A stretch of DNA of 27,615 nucleotides, from the IMG/VR virus record IMGVR_UViG_3300025652_000412, positions 1 through 27,615 of that record; one strand, written 5' to 3'. Both the position numbers and the translations under genes were made by a program. How positions within the stretch are numbered: the stretch's first letter is position 1; each line of letters begins with the position of its first letter. Source of the stretch: a virus. Under the pieces are notes generated by a model. The model saw only the letters and a program-made list of their open reading frames with translations, ran no database searches and was not told the DNA's origin. Shown here one piece after another: positions 8,208 to 21,740 of the stretch.

Positions 8208-8407
8208 TCACGCCAGAAGTTCTTGATCGGTGGAGAGTGTTGCCTCGGTTTGTCATGTTCGTAATGATCGTGATGACTTATCGAGTGGTCGAATGGTTCA
8301 TGGATTTGCCTGACCCCAATCCAGAACAAGCGGCCTTGGTCAGCGTAATGACGGGGGCCCTTACCGGCGCTTTCGGGCTTTTTCTGGGGTCTGGCAAGAA
8401 AGAATAA
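8204..8407 (+). CDS. Small two-TM holin-like protein, 67 aa
   Basis: MITPEVLDRWRVLPR is a short cytoplasmic start that I recall from a family of small phage membrane proteins. Two hydrophobic helices follow (about 17-34 and 44-62), joined by an acidic loop (DLPDPNPEQ), and the protein ends GKKE. It overlaps the 3TM holin (ATGA) and abuts the lysozyme start. A third holin-type protein in a row suggests timing control (holin, antiholin or pinholin pairs), but which one forms the hole cannot be read from sequence. Confidence 0.68.
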   Translation: MITPEVLDRWRVLPRFVMFVMIVMTYRVVEWFMDLPDPNPEQAALVSVMTGALTGAFGLFLGSGKKE

Positions 8408-8850
8408 TGCACACCTCACAGGAAGGTATTGATCTCATCAAGCATTTTGAGGGCTGTGAGACAAAAGCCTATCAATGTAGTGCTGACGTATGGACTATTG
8501 GCTATGGCCATACTTTCTGCGTCAAAGAAGGCGACAAAATCACCGAAGAAGAGGCCGAGGCCCTTTTGAAAGAGGATCTTTGCGAATTCGAAGAGCACGT
8601 TGACCGGCTTGTCACGGTCAGTTTAAACCAAGATCAATTTGATGCCTTGGTGTCTTGGACGTTTAATCTCGGTCCCACCAATCTCAAGGAAAGCACCCTC
8701 CTCCGCAAGCTCAATGAAGGCCATTATGATGATGTGCCCGCAGAAATGGCGCGCTGGAATCGCGCTGGTGGAGAAGTTCTTGAGGGGCTAAAACGCCGCC
8801 GCAAGGCCGAGGGCGCGCTTTGGAAAGGCTTAGAGTGGCGAGATGTCTAG
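8407..8850 (+). CDS. Endolysin: GH24 lysozyme (muramidase), 147 aa
   Basis: The catalytic triad pattern of phage lysozymes is visible: Glu15 in FEGCE, Cys24 at the Asp/Cys position, and Thr30 in VWTIGYGHT (28-36). The 8- and 5-residue spacings match the P22/T4 lysozyme class. A central FNLG motif and the C-terminal RWNRAGGEVLEGLKRRR are also family hallmarks. It cleaves the MurNAc-GlcNAc bond of peptidoglycan. There is no signal or SAR helix at the N-terminus, so it needs one of the upstream holins to cross the membrane. Length is normal. Its end overlaps the terminase start by 8 nt. Confidence 0.93.
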   Translation: MHTSQEGIDLIKHFEGCETKAYQCSADVWTIGYGHTFCVKEGDKITEEEAEALLKEDLCEFEEHVDRLVTVSLNQDQFDALVSWTFNLGPTNLKESTLLRKLNEGHYDDVPAEMARWNRAGGEVLEGLKRRRKAEGALWKGLEWRDV

Positions 8851-13053: not shown

Positions 13054-13235
13054 TGGACGACATTGATCTGGCCCACCGAATTAAGCGGACTATTGAAGAG
13101 CGCAAGGGCTTAATTCAAGATATGCTCATGGGCGGTGGACTTAATTCCATAGAACACTACAAAAGTGTACAAGGAGAATTAACCGCGCTATCATTGATTG
13201 AAGAACAAATCTCAGACTACTTTAGGGAGAAGTAA
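13053..13235 (+). CDS. Small helical protein, 60 aa
   Basis: The protein starts and ends in TAATG overlaps with both neighbours. It is almost wholly helical with a heptad-like pattern (AHRIKRTIEERKGLIQDML and LTALSLIEEQISDYF) around a central GGGLNS turn, which suggests a helical hairpin that dimerises. Its place between portal and scaffold genes suggests an assembly or connector factor. I do not recognise a named family. Confidence 0.65.
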   Translation: MDDIDLAHRIKRTIEERKGLIQDMLMGGGLNSIEHYKSVQGELTALSLIEEQISDYFREK

Positions 13236-13645
13236 TGGGAGCAGAAGAAGCCTACGTCGAATCGGATCGGGTTGTACTCGATCCTAGTCTTTTAGAAAAA
13301 AGCGCTATCGAGCGAATGCCAGATCCAACAGGCTGGAGAATGCTCGTCTTGCCGTGGTCAGGAGTCGCGAAATCCAAGGGCGGCATTCATCTGACAAAAG
13401 CCACCATGGATCGCGAGGCGCTTGCCACTGTGGTCGCATATGTGGTCAAAATGGGGCCGCTTTGCTATAACGACACGGATAAGTATGGCGACACGCCGTG
13501 GTGTAAAGAGAGACAGTGGATTTTAATCGGCCGTTACTCAGGTGCCAGATTTAAACTGGACGACGGCGCGGAGGTGCGGATCATCAACGATGATGAGGTG
13601 ATTGGCACAATTTTTAACCCTGACGATATAGTGAGCATCCTATGA
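13235..13645 (+). CDS. GroES-like co-chaperonin (Cpn10 fold), 136 aa
   Basis: Residues 28-136 follow the Cpn10 pattern. GWRMLVLP (33-40) corresponds to the first strand. A mobile-loop-like stretch, GVAKSKGGIHL (43-53), carries the GGI anchor by which GroES binds GroEL. Then come VVAYVVKMGP (66-75), a loop, and the closing DDEVIGTIFNPDDI. Phage co-chaperonins such as T4 gp31 replace GroES so that the host GroEL can fold the major capsid protein. Here the gene lies between portal and scaffold, upstream of the capsid gene. An extra loop at about 76-96 (with WCKERQW) and a 28-residue N-terminal extension make it longer than the ~97-aa bacterial GroES. Family call is firm; capsid folding as the job is inference. 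Confidence 0.78.
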   Translation: MGAEEAYVESDRVVLDPSLLEKSAIERMPDPTGWRMLVLPWSGVAKSKGGIHLTKATMDREALATVVAYVVKMGPLCYNDTDKYGDTPWCKERQWILIGRYSGARFKLDDGAEVRIINDDEVIGTIFNPDDIVSIL

Positions 13646-17846: not shown

Positions 17847-18131
17847 ATGGCTACGACCAAAGACGTTAAGCGACTCCCCTCTGGGCGATTGAGCTACAGG
17901 GGGGAGACTTTTGCTGGTTACAACAAGCCAAAGAGAACGCCCGGCAAGGCCAAGAAAAGCGCGGTTCTTGCCAAGAAAGGTAGCGAAGTTAAGCTCGTTA
18001 GATATGGCGACAGCAAGATGACGATTAAAAAAAGCCAGCCCGCAAGGCGTAAGTCTTTTCGAGCGCGGCATAAATGCGATACCGCAAAAGACAAATTTTC
18101 GGCCAGATATTGGTCATGTAAGGCTTGGTAA
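17847..18131 (+). CDS. Basic Cys-containing protein, 94 aa (DUF5872/6321-like)
   Basis: The protein is Lys/Arg-rich throughout. It ends in the conserved-looking block ARRKSFRARHKCD, then FSARYWSCKAW, with two Cys and aromatic residues. I recall this C-terminal block from a domain of unknown function shared by phages and large DNA viruses; the DUF number is not certain. Its KKSAVLAKKGSEVKLVRYGD middle is beta-like. With a strong positive charge it probably binds nucleic acid or the negatively charged inside of the head. It opens a run of small basic genes. Confidence 0.68.
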   Translation: MATTKDVKRLPSGRLSYRGETFAGYNKPKRTPGKAKKSAVLAKKGSEVKLVRYGDSKMTIKKSQPARRKSFRARHKCDTAKDKFSARYWSCKAW

Positions 18132-18145
18132 CGGGAGGATTAGGC

Positions 18146-19345
18146 GTGTCAAATCTAGCAAATCTAACAAATCTAATGAACAATCCATACGCTGGGCTTG
18201 CAAGCTCATTGCTACAACGTAGTGGGCCCGGCGCGCTGTACGGAGCGGCAAACTTGGCAAGCAATTATTTCACAGGCCAAACAATTCCACAGCATATCGT
18301 TGATTTTTTTAGAAACTCAGGCAGTGGATTGCCAAGAAATCCACAGCCAAATGTGCGCCAAGATGACATCTTGCCCGAGGACTCAGAGGTTTTACATAGA
18401 TTTTCGAGGCCCGTAGGCATGAAAGAGATTGTAACGCCTCCCCCGAAAAACACGTCAACGGTAAATCCGACGTTCAGTTTTTTCAATCAAGGCGGAGTAG
18501 CACAGACGTCTCCGCCAATACCGCCCCGCCCAATGAATCCATACATTCCCTCGCAGATGTCGCCCCCCATTGATACGACTGGCCGTCTTGGGCAGATACC
18601 GCCTTCGAGTGGCCCCGGCCCGTTTTCGGGGGGTGTCAATGTTGGCGCTCCTGCGAATCTTGGCGGGGCGCTTGGCGGAATGGGCGCAGACCCAAGCATT
18701 ATTGAGCGCATTAAAGCGTTGGCGGCAAATTATTCTGGCCAATCCGCGCCCAATCCGCAGGCTCAGTTCAATAATCTGACGCAATCCGTCCAAGGTCTTA
18801 CGGGCGGCTCTGAGCCGATGTCAAACCCCTTCAGAGGCGGCTCTCCGTTTGGCTTCAGCATAGATCAAAGCATGATTGACAGGGTAAGAGAAATAATCCG
18901 CCAACGGCAACAAGAGATGGGGCAGTCTACTCCACAGCAACCACAGATAGACCCTGCCGCGATCCAAGCAAGGCTCGATGAGTTTTTGGCCAATAACCCA
19001 GACAGTGGCCCTATCTCTTTACCCCTCGGTGGAAACCTTGATGTAGCCAACCTAAGAGATAGAATGGCGCGTCTATCAGCACTCATGGGTCGCGGGATGA
19101 GTTTTCAAGAGGCTACGGGCAATCAACGTGCGGCCATAGCACAAGGTCACGATCTCGATAACGACGGGATTGTGACTGATGCAGAATACAGGCAGTCAAC
19201 CACGCCTGCGGGCGGAGGCAGGATTAGCCAATTGATGAGCGCATTGCCGACTGGCGAATCTGCTATAAATCCTGCGTCTGGCACGCCCATGATAGAAGGC
19301 CGCATCAGCCAATTGATGAACGCATTAGGCGGAGGCAGGATGTAA
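18146..19345 (+). CDS. Pro/Gly-rich protein with one EF-hand loop, 399 aa
   Basis: GTG 18146 is preferred over TTG 18125, because GGGAGG (18133-18138) precedes it at good spacing. The N-terminal ~40 residues are helical (NLANLTNLMNNPYAGLASSL). The middle is long, Pro/Gly-rich and probably disordered. Helices with IDQSMIDRVREIIRQRQQE follow. Residues 336-347 read DLDNDGIVTDAE, a complete EF-hand calcium loop (D1, D3, D5, G6, E12), with an AIAQGH helix before it. The C-terminus repeats RISQLMxAL twice. It may be an internal virion or ejected protein; calcium binding is predicted and not shown. Its stop overlaps the next start (TAATG). Confidence 0.65.
   Translation: MSNLANLTNLMNNPYAGLASSLLQRSGPGALYGAANLASNYFTGQTIPQHIVDFFRNSGSGLPRNPQPNVRQDDILPEDSEVLHRFSRPVGMKEIVTPPPKNTSTVNPTFSFFNQGGVAQTSPPIPPRPMNPYIPSQMSPPIDTTGRLGQIPPSSGPGPFSGGVNVGAPANLGGALGGMGADPSIIERIKALAANYSGQSAPNPQAQFNNLTQSVQGLTGGSEPMSNPFRGGSPFGFSIDQSMIDRVREIIRQRQQEMGQSTPQQPQIDPAAIQARLDEFLANNPDSGPISLPLGGNLDVANLRDRMARLSALMGRGMSFQEATGNQRAAIAQGHDLDNDGIVTDAEYRQSTTPAGGGRISQLMSALPTGESAINPASGTPMIEGRISQLMNALGGGRM
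19221..19326 (+). repeat. Duplicated C-terminal segment of the EF-hand gene
   Basis: AGCCAATTGATGA is repeated at about 19226 and 19308, within longer near-identical stretches that encode RISQLMSAL and RISQLMNAL. The copies are in frame and 81 bp apart, so this is a small tandem duplication at the protein end. Confidence 0.7.
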
Positions 19346-19557
19346 TGCCAAGGGCAAAACCCAAGGCAAAGCCAAAGAAAAAGGCTAAATCTCGGGTTAA
19401 CGAGGCAGGCAATTACACTAAGCCAAGTCTTCGCAAAAGAATTTTTAATCGCATAAAGGCGGGCTCCAAAGGCGGAAAAAGTGGCCAGTGGAGCGCCAGA
19501 AAAGCTCAAATGCTGGCTTCTGAATACAAAAAATCTGGGGGAGGATATAAGGACTAA
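19345..19557 (+). CDS. Small Lys-rich protein, 70 aa (conserved in phages)
   Basis: MPRAKPKAKPKKKAKSRVNE is followed by AGNYTKPSLRKRIFNRIKAGSKGG and QWSARKAQMLASEYKKSGGGYK. The core AGNYTKP...GQWSARKAQMLA is a pattern I remember from a very common, unnamed phage protein family. The strongly basic, flexible N-terminus and a helical core point to nucleic-acid binding. Start and stop both overlap neighbours (TAATG). Function is unproven. Confidence 0.72.
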   Translation: MPRAKPKAKPKKKAKSRVNEAGNYTKPSLRKRIFNRIKAGSKGGKSGQWSARKAQMLASEYKKSGGGYKD

Positions 19558-19811
19558 TGGCTCTCAAGAAGTCACAAAAGTCCTTAAAGAAGTGGACAAA
19601 GCAAAAGTGGCGCACCAAGTCTGGCAAGCCCAGTACGCAAGGCAAGAAGGCCACAGGCGAACGATATTTGCCAGAAAAGGCCATCAAGGCTATGTCCGAC
19701 AAGGAATATGCGGCCACCACTAGGAAGAAGCGCGCGGACACCAAAAAAGGCAAGCAGTTCTCAAAGCAACCGAAGAAGGTTGCCAAAAAGACAGTGAGGC
19801 ATCGCAAATGA
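19557..19811 (+). CDS. Small Lys-rich protein, 84 aa (DUF5872-like)
   Basis: The sequence MALKKSQKSLKKWTKQKWRTKSG, followed by GERYLPEKAIKAMSDKEYAATTRKKRAD, matches the DUF5872 pattern I remember from phages and giant viruses. Lys plus Arg make up about one third of residues. The central helical unit suggests a small fold with basic tails, a design also seen in DNA-condensing proteins. The end overlaps the next gene (ATGA). Together with its neighbours it may compact DNA or bind RNA; this is inference. Confidence 0.75.
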   Translation: MALKKSQKSLKKWTKQKWRTKSGKPSTQGKKATGERYLPEKAIKAMSDKEYAATTRKKRADTKKGKQFSKQPKKVAKKTVRHRK

Positions 19812-19990
19812 AAATTGACGAAAAAAAGGCGGATCTCAACAAAGATGGCAAGCTGTCAGGTTATGAAAGAAAGCGTGGCGAAGCGGTTGCTCGCAACCTA
19901 AACAAAGGCGGTTATGTCGAAGTTCAAGGGCGCGGCTGTGGCGCGATGATGGAAGGCAGGCGCAAAAAAACCCGAATCCCCCAATCCTAG
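19808..19990 (+). CDS. EF-hand microprotein with GRGCGAMM tail, 60 aa
   Basis: Residues 9-20 read DLNKDGKLSGYE, a canonical EF-hand calcium loop (D1, N3, D5, G6, E12). A charged helix, RKRGEAVARNL, follows it. The C-terminal half has GGYVEVQGRGCGAMMEGRRKKTRIP, a motif that I recall at the ends of several phage proteins. One loop alone would need to pair with another EF-hand, and the protein at 18146 supplies one. The start overlaps the DUF5872-like gene. The protein could be a calcium-responsive virion component; binding is predicted only. Confidence 0.65.
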   Translation: MKIDEKKADLNKDGKLSGYERKRGEAVARNLNKGGYVEVQGRGCGAMMEGRRKKTRIPQS

Positions 19991-20368: not shown

Positions 20369-21064
20369 ATGGCTTATTTGCAAAGTAATATCCCGCATTT
20401 TAAATGCTGGGTACGCAGGGAGTACACGCATAACCATCAAAAATACCACGGCGAGTTTCTTCACGCCATGGCTATTGCTGTCACCACCATGCCTACGAGA
20501 TGCCTTAGCTTTCAATTAATTTTTACTGGTTGCGAGGCTGACGATACGGATGACCCTAATATACATGGGGGCGCGATGTGGGCACGGATGCCCATTACGG
20601 CGCTGGTGGGCGACACGCCATTTGAGGAGTGGCCAGAGCCTATGCCTGTCTGGGCGGCTCAGCCATGGGATTGTAGCTCTCATCATCATGCTGTTTATAC
20701 GCTCGACAGAGCGAAACCGTGTCCTTGGCTTGCCATGATCGACGGGGAGATGTATCCCGCCAAATATTATTTCACTGTCGATTATGCAGAGAATGAGATC
20801 GCCGACGATCCCGCTCAGCATAAGCAGAGTCACGTTCTTGAGTTGCTAGATGCGGGACCATGGACAGGCAACATAGTAGCGTTGCCAAACAATCGAGTGC
20901 GAGTAACGCACCCCGCATGGTTTGAAACCGGCGAAGGGGCCCCTGACTTCAGACCCTCGCAACATATCCATTACTCAAAATCTGATTTAGACTACACCTT
21001 GGACGTAAATCAGGTTTTCAATAACCTATATGCGGGTGCTAAAGATGGCGACGAGCGGCAGTAA
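20369..21064 (+). CDS. Conserved phage protein, 231 aa, unknown function
   Basis: The start MAYLQSNIPHFKCWVRREY, with EFLHAMAIAVTTMPTRCLSFQLIFTG after it, is a pattern I remember from marine phages. The middle is rich in Trp, His and Pro (QPWDCSSHHHAVYTLDRAKPCPW). Several His, Cys and Asp residues could hold a metal, but I can name no site. It begins directly after the basic cluster and overlaps the adaptor gene by 20 nt. It could be a structural or morphogenesis protein. No signal or TM. Confidence 0.65.
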   Translation: MAYLQSNIPHFKCWVRREYTHNHQKYHGEFLHAMAIAVTTMPTRCLSFQLIFTGCEADDTDDPNIHGGAMWARMPITALVGDTPFEEWPEPMPVWAAQPWDCSSHHHAVYTLDRAKPCPWLAMIDGEMYPAKYYFTVDYAENEIADDPAQHKQSHVLELLDAGPWTGNIVALPNNRVRVTHPAWFETGEGAPDFRPSQHIHYSKSDLDYTLDVNQVFNNLYAGAKDGDERQ

Positions 21065-21740
21065 AGATTTTGAATTAGATGTAGCTGATTATGTAGAAGA
21101 AGCGTTTGAGCGATGCGGGCTTGAGCTTCGCACTGGCTACGATCTCAAGACGGCACAGCGATCCCTTAACCTGATGCTTGCGGAGTGGGCTAATCGCGGG
21201 CTAAATCAGTGGACTATCAATCAAAAAACAATAAGTGCAGTGCAGGATACAACTGTATACACAATTGATACTACAAATCCCACTTCGGTGATTGACGTGC
21301 TTGATGTGTTTGTCAGAGAAACCGTGTCAGGTACGACCTCAGACTTGCCTTTAACAAAGCTGTCGCGAGCGGAATACGCGCACATTGCAACGAAAACAAG
21401 CACCGGAAAGCCAAATCAGTATTTTGTCGACAAACAGATAACTCCGACGATTACGGTGTGGCCTGCGCCAGACAAAAGCTCCGCTTACACCATTTACTTA
21501 AATGTACTGAGTCGCATGGATGACGCTGACGTGGGAACAAATACCATGGAAGTTCCGTTTCGATTTTATCCATGCCTTGCGGCTGGGCTTGCCTACTACA
21601 TAGCTTTGAAACGCACCCCTGATAAGGTGCCTTTGTTGAAACAACTTTATGAAGAGGAGTTTGAGCGGGCCTTGTCACAAGATCAGTCTCGTGCGAGCTT
21701 CCGTGTAGCCCCTGACTTGACTATTTACAGGATTGCCTAG
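21045..21740 (+). CDS. Head-tail adaptor, P22 gp4-like, 231 aa
   Basis: ATG 21045 (MATSGSKDFELDVADYVEEAFERCG) is chosen over ATG 21030, because the conserved start follows it directly. The helical bundle opening, YDLKTAQRSLNLMLAEWANRGLNQWT, is characteristic of gp4-type proteins that bind beneath the portal and keep packaged DNA inside. A beta-rich middle and a C-terminal helix (LLKQLYEEEFERALSQDQSR) follow. Family call is from memory and from context: it precedes SU10-type adaptor and nozzle genes. The stop overlaps the next start (TAGTG). Confidence 0.72.
   Translation: MATSGSKDFELDVADYVEEAFERCGLELRTGYDLKTAQRSLNLMLAEWANRGLNQWTINQKTISAVQDTTVYTIDTTNPTSVIDVLDVFVRETVSGTTSDLPLTKLSRAEYAHIATKTSTGKPNQYFVDKQITPTITVWPAPDKSSAYTIYLNVLSRMDDADVGTNTMEVPFRFYPCLAAGLAYYIALKRTPDKVPLLKQLYEEEFERALSQDQSRASFRVAPDLTIYRIA

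Follow-up and report, generated by a model that had tools for sequence, protein, structure and literature searches.

A portable EF-hand-like module in otherwise unrelated viral proteins

Two single EF-hand-type loops are encoded in one gene cluster of a virus record, which raises the question of what each of them does there and whether the two act on one another. The window that we analysed, by which we mean the whole record of 27,615 bases, encodes a portal resembling those of pelagiphages HTVC027P and HTVC023P, phage DSL-LC04 and roseophage CRP-901. A sequence-only reading of this DNA had described both loops as canonical, placed them in neighbouring genes and proposed that they pair in trans.

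Two EF-hand-type loops and their genes

18146..19345, plus strand: gene for a 399-aa protein, GTG start at 18146; Gly/Pro/Gln-rich and fast-evolving; bears loop 1
19151..19186, plus strand: loop 1, DLDNDGIVTDAE(Y), residues 336-347 of the 399-aa protein; the conserved stretch MSFQEATGNQRAAIAQGH precedes it
19345..19557, plus strand: gene for a 70-aa basic protein (phrog_17747, function not annotated); 1-base overlap with each neighbour
19557..19811, plus strand: gene for an 84-aa basic protein (phrog_14910, function not annotated); 4-base overlap (ATGA) with the 60-aa gene
19808..19990, plus strand: gene for a 60-aa protein, ATG at 19808; loop-2 module followed by the tail RGCGAMMEGRRKKTRIP
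19826..19903, plus strand: EF-hand-like portable module, KADLNKDGKLSGYERKRGEAVARNLN, containing loop 2 proper (19832-19867)
19832..19867, plus strand: loop 2, DLNKDGKLSGYE, residues 9-20 of the 60-aa protein
20369..21064, plus strand: gene for a 231-aa protein (phrog_3704), with a homologue 3' of the module gene in syntenic relatives
21030..21740, plus strand: gene for a 236-aa protein (phrog_12985), an adaptor (head-tail connector) candidate through its similarity to an annotated adaptor

Direct reading of the frames confirms both loops where they had been reported, and each has the 12-residue EF-hand loop, with ligands at positions 1, 3, 5 and 12, the expected position 6 and a hydrophobic position 8. 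The strict pattern D.[DN].[DN]G.[ILV]...E finds these two loops alone in all six frames of the window, and when the 42 likely gene products were shuffled over 2000 rounds the mean number of strict loops was 0.005 and two were never reached. The description of the loops as canonical stands in full for loop 1, which matches the entire PROSITE-style EF-hand pattern, and stands for positions 1-12 of loop 2, but not for its position 13, which is R and not hydrophobic. The two genes, which had been called neighbours, are not adjacent, since the 70-aa and 84-aa genes intervene. All four genes of 18146-19990 overlap by 1-4 bases and are therefore likely to be carried on a single transcript; the 84-aa protein is 96-100% identical among close relatives, and the adaptor candidate further downstream is 41% identical to the annotated adaptor of phage DSL-LC04. 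The acidic positions of both loops, whose loss would have spoken against the earlier proposal, are kept in nearly all relatives.

Conservation of the module around loop 2

Loop 2 is part of a module of 25-30 residues with the consensus LKNPxKADL[DN]KDGKLSxYEKKRGxAIEKxM, and a profile of it (the A2 model) has a single match in the window, at 19814-19906 (E 5.1e-18). With the 60-aa protein as query we found 79 viral loci, about 25 of which match along much of the protein (homologues with 62-100% identity occur at about 23 loci), while in the remainder the match is confined to the surroundings of the loop, which lie near either terminus or centrally in proteins ranging from about 50 to more than 500 aa. 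Because the loop was itself one bait in that scan, two further scans were each baited on one half of the module; both report the matches listed, the records are mostly fragments, and all counts of the module are to be read as "at least". With KRGxAIxKxM alone as bait, a canonical loop stands just upstream in 96 of the 118 matches listed, and most of the matches lacking one still keep D1, D/N3, D5 and E12, with K or H at position 6. With KADLxKDGKL alone as bait, S9, Y11 and E12 come next in all 107 matches listed, and R15 and A18 are present in 106 of the 107. Sixty-four of the 66 distinct module-like loops among the matches listed in the KRGxAIxKxM scan satisfy PROSITE positions 1-12, and position 6 in these 64 is G, K, D, N or H only, all of which PROSITE allows. 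We note that K, D or N replaces G at loop position 6 (e.g. DLDKDKEISSYE) in L091, L103, L107, L113, L114, L150, L162, L174, L175, L180 and L181.

Between proteins with unrelated flanks the 24 core residues are 76% identical, a figure to be read with the fact that the collecting pattern required D1, D/N3, E12, R15, A18 and I19, so that the half-bait scans give the cleaner per-position measure. Where residues are identical, the codons are identical at a frequency of 0.51 against 0.50 expected, which is the random level. Codon choice is thus random despite the amino-acid identity, and selection therefore acts on the protein; recent copying, or an element acting at the DNA or RNA level, is rejected as the source of the likeness on the same ground. 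This degree of identity between otherwise unrelated viral proteins, together with the randomised codons, indicates a strong constraint common to them, one that is not represented in the family libraries searched. Conservation extends beyond the ligand positions to L2, Y11, R15, A18 and I19, and metal binding alone therefore does not explain the module.

Host proteins, gene neighbourhoods and copy number

Grouping of the 219 distinct host proteins with the module masked yields 41 groups, and in 18 of these the part outside the module amounts to 80 residues or more; at least 18 groups lack detectable similarity in their flanks, although distant homology may merge some of them. The carriers include podoviruses, T4-like myoviruses, roseophages, an autographivirus and a Poseidoniales-associated virus, and are mostly marine as far as named sources show. 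Cultured phages among them are CRP-3, roseophage CRP-235, CRP-738 and pelagiphage HTVC041P, and the role of the module is thus open to experiment.

In the cases examined, in which part of the host groups could be placed, the module lies mostly among head or connector genes. In the T4-like L142 and L206 the host gene is directly 5' of the gene for the major head protein (phrog_138), the slot of scaffold gene 22 in T4-like phages; the host protein of these two loci has no match to any scaffold family. The module is found between the portal and coat genes in CRP-3, CRP-235 and CRP-738, in CRP-3 inside a 1292-aa protein with a cell-wall hydrolase domain, and in HTVC041P it constitutes a 45-aa gene between scaffold and capsid. 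A SU10-type portal adjoins the module gene in L116 and L322, and in L321, from a Poseidoniales single-cell assembly, the module lies between the portal and the prohead protease, with a terminase also nearby. In the window's relatives the module gene is 5' of the phrog_3704 gene and an adaptor-type gene, and in L320 and L323 it is directly 5' of the adaptor-type gene (phrog_12985). From this gene order we infer a virion location for the module proteins.

The host proteins vary in what accompanies the module. A unit of module plus Gly-Cys-Gly tail (RGCGAMM.., GCGAVMNNRRKVTT) occurs alone or behind varied front parts in the 60-aa group and related podoviruses, and the tail of the 60-aa protein recurs together with the module in other host groups. 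The front part is a tryptophan/cysteine-containing domain in L108 and L129, another cysteine-rich domain in L169 and L235, DUF5872-like (PF19197) in L028 and DUF5824 (PF19141) in L301 and L342; these last two families are fused ahead of the loop-2 unit, are unrelated to the module in sequence and are not EF-hands. As separate observations, the host proteins of L072 and L102 have a common C-terminal SDAPQFKGKSKxKKRxMAxAAKL, and those of L126 and L196, otherwise different, have a common C-terminal IRGTKFKGVF.

There is one module per record where it is present, and its presence is not universal. On 24 records of 15.7-196 kb the module profile gave exactly one match each at E<=0.001, and in a second set one strong match was found in 11 of 18 records; in the cellular assemblies G028 and G029 the extra matches were weak (E 0.06-0.6). 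No module match was found in HTVC027P, HTVC023P, CRP-901, DSL-LC04 or 023Pt_psg01, the nearest isolates by portal, and in L033 and L034 the tail of the 60-aa protein is retained with the loop missing. The module, being absent from these isolates and from the related gene in L033 and L034, is therefore not essential to the gene.

A search with the module consensus gave matches in four phage records at E<=1 and none in plasmid records. Across cellular genomes (one per species, 84,980 species) only six loci were confirmed, L318-L323, and for four of these (L320, L323, L321 and L322) a family search identifies a phage gene as neighbour. The gene content marks L321 (terminase, portal, prohead protease) and L322 (SU10-type portal) as viral; L319 has a viral look solely from the way its predicted proteins begin. 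A cellular origin of the module is rejected, given only six confirmed loci with four beside phage genes. A search of the available literature returned no description of the module.

Metal binding, docking and pairing

How far loop 2 belongs with known calcium-binding motifs can be judged from its likenesses and differences. With the EF-hand motif (Pfam EF-hand_1/5/6/8; PROSITE PS00018) it shares D1, D/N3, D5, G6, a hydrophobic position 8, S/T at 9 and E12, and several EF-hand models weakly match both loops; EF-hand_5 weakly matches 23 of the 28 members of one module alignment. Unlike an EF-hand, loop 2 has no predicted entering helix, is not hydrophobic at position 13, lacks a second hand nearby in almost all loci, is followed by a conserved predicted exit helix with KRGxAI, and falls below every cut-off: the best score of its hosts against the Pfam EF-hand models was 19.3 bits (cut-off 25.9), and that of the window's 60-aa protein 14.1. 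Loop 2 begins at residue 9, which leaves almost no preceding sequence for an entering helix, and AlphaFold2 predicts, with low confidence, the loop and then a helix at 18-32 with no entering helix (module pLDDT about 67-70, or about 43-62 in a second model). A loop and exit helix with no entering helix is also what is seen in the F-hand of type I dockerins (PF00404); apart from two enzymes, the profile matches in the PDB are to calcium-binding proteins of the EF-hand or dockerin kind, and the best include dockerins, one with KADLNNDG. A dockerin carries a tandem pair of F-hands, usually with D at position 12, whereas the module is single in the hosts read, has E at 12 and has a different helix. 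Against Dockerin_1 the protein of L108 scored 17.0 bits (cut-off 22.9), and the best E-value in the alignment was 0.0034.

The module is conserved as protein, is portable, occurs once per carrying record and, in the cases examined, lies mostly amid head-morphogenesis genes. On balance, and by a narrow measure, we favour the explanation that loop 2 is a metal-binding docking tag, composed of a single loop and an exit helix, on one head or connector assembly protein of mainly marine tailed viruses. Loop 2 would be half of an EF-hand, a metal-binding loop and then an exit helix, resembling one F-hand of a dockerin. It would bind Ca2+, as the kept ligand positions 1, 3, 5, 9 and 12 suggest, and binding would order the loop and helix, upon which the conserved helix face (Y11, R15, A18, I19 and M23) might contact a partner alike in kind across these viruses. 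Candidate partners are another copy of the module, a head protein or a host factor. More tentatively, it is possible, though we would not expect it, that tailed sea viruses, one of them archaea-associated, share a calcium-dependent, once-per-carrier docking tag that hopped between unrelated head-assembly proteins; if this is true, it would imply that these viruses have in common either a binding partner or a step of calcium sensing that is new to the literature.

It is also conceivable, if rather unlikely, that the module is a short docking motif that binds no metal, in which case the EF-hand look would be incidental and the whole 25-residue string would be a recognition peptide for a conserved partner. 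The non-ligand positions are as conserved as the ligand positions, position 13 is not hydrophobic, single EF-hands tend toward weak binding, and hosts in the scaffold position work in low-calcium cytoplasm, all of which would fit such a peptide. Nevertheless, the variation at position 3 (D/N) and position 6 (G, K, H, N, D) stays within what an EF-hand allows, position 12 is E, and EF-hands or dockerins account for the weak hits to families at the loop and for most of the weak ones to structures. We regard as improbable a second alternative, whereby the loop would hold no calcium in the cytoplasm, fill at the roughly 10 mM Ca2+ outside and stiffen a part of the virion, then empty and loosen on entry. 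The canonical ligands, the mostly marine distribution by named sources and the single copy on proteins encoded amid head and connector genes are in keeping with a seawater switch of this kind. However, in the T4-like relatives the host protein occupies the scaffold position, scaffolds act inside the low-calcium cell and those of T4 type are degraded before release, and Mg2+ exceeds Ca2+ in seawater.

The proposal that the two single hands pair in trans, with calcium driving or releasing the complex, depends on loop 1. The 399-aa protein that bears this loop matched nothing in phage records and could be assigned to neither a PHROG nor a Pfam family above cut-off; its syntenic relatives vary from 246 to 399 aa and change quickly in sequence, while the genes beside it are about 85-100% identical between the same relatives. 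Loop 1 is constrained inside this fast-evolving protein and is confined to the window's clade. It is kept, as DL[DN]NDGIVTDAEY, DLNNDGIVTDEEY or DLNNDGA[VI]TNAEY, in all examined syntenic clade relatives except L014, which has lost it, and in L027-L031 a different, coiled-coil-like gene without loop 1 takes the place of its gene. Summed over pairs, so that the counts are not independent, codon changes were 620 synonymous to 192 non-synonymous in loop 1 and 1120 to 1717 in the 33 codons 5' of it. A search for the loop-1 unit gave 21 loci, all with such a unit, and none in phage records. Its profile matched the PDB weakly, the matches being EF-hand proteins without exception, and its matches to EF-hand models were weak and below cut-off; loop 1 probably binds metal as well.

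EF-hands usually pair, every loop-1 contig that reaches the small gene carries loop 2, and the conserved, possibly helical stretch before loop 1 would complement the predicted helix after loop 2. The loop-1 cases all belong to one clade, however, so their co-occurrence with loop 2 may reflect shared descent, and the module stands without loop 1 in L014 and L027-L031 and in nearly all other module viruses. Apart from the module's own loop, the strict pattern is matched in 314 module loci (2.48 Mb, many of them overlapping) just by this clade's loop 1 and by a single loop in L198; these loci are overlapping pieces, and a distant second hand may lie beyond them. With hundreds of viral loci carrying the module, nearly all with no second canonical loop nearby, and with one strong module match in each carrying record examined, trans pairing is not supported as the working mode of the small protein and is rejected as a general mechanism, and we consider it very doubtful as an account of these two hands. 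Loop 1 is not the general partner of the module, but it may help the module's role, as an auxiliary link to loop 2 inside this clade. Chance resemblance in Lys/Gly-rich proteins, which are small and compositionally biased, has a negligible probability and is refuted by the shuffling, both half-module scans and the codon randomisation.

If the docking tag that we favour binds calcium, it gives direct access to the way in which marine viruses exploit the lower calcium level of the cytoplasm relative to seawater; should it bind none, the module would be a docking signal, and its partner would have to be shared by podoviruses, myoviruses and an archaea-associated virus. Fragments common to otherwise unrelated phage proteins were described by Smug et al. 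2023 (PMC10684548), whose sequence-based test counted a shared stretch only from 50 aa upwards, so that a module of 25-30 aa would fall outside it, and whose main text makes no mention of EF-hand, calcium or dockerin.

We also note several features elsewhere in the window. A 94-aa basic protein encoded at 17847-18131 has the C-terminal RARHKCDTAKDKFSARYWSCKAW and matches four PHROGs with differing annotation, all along one and the same stretch, perhaps another portable short module. By eye, the 265-aa ORF at 1965-2762 resembles a serine recombinase (RIYGYIRQSHSE...ATRLDRLSRSV) and the 147-aa ORF at 8407-8850 a phage lysozyme. The 136-aa gene at 13235-13645 lies roughly where HTVC027P and CRP-901 have an annotated GroES, and is assigned from position alone.
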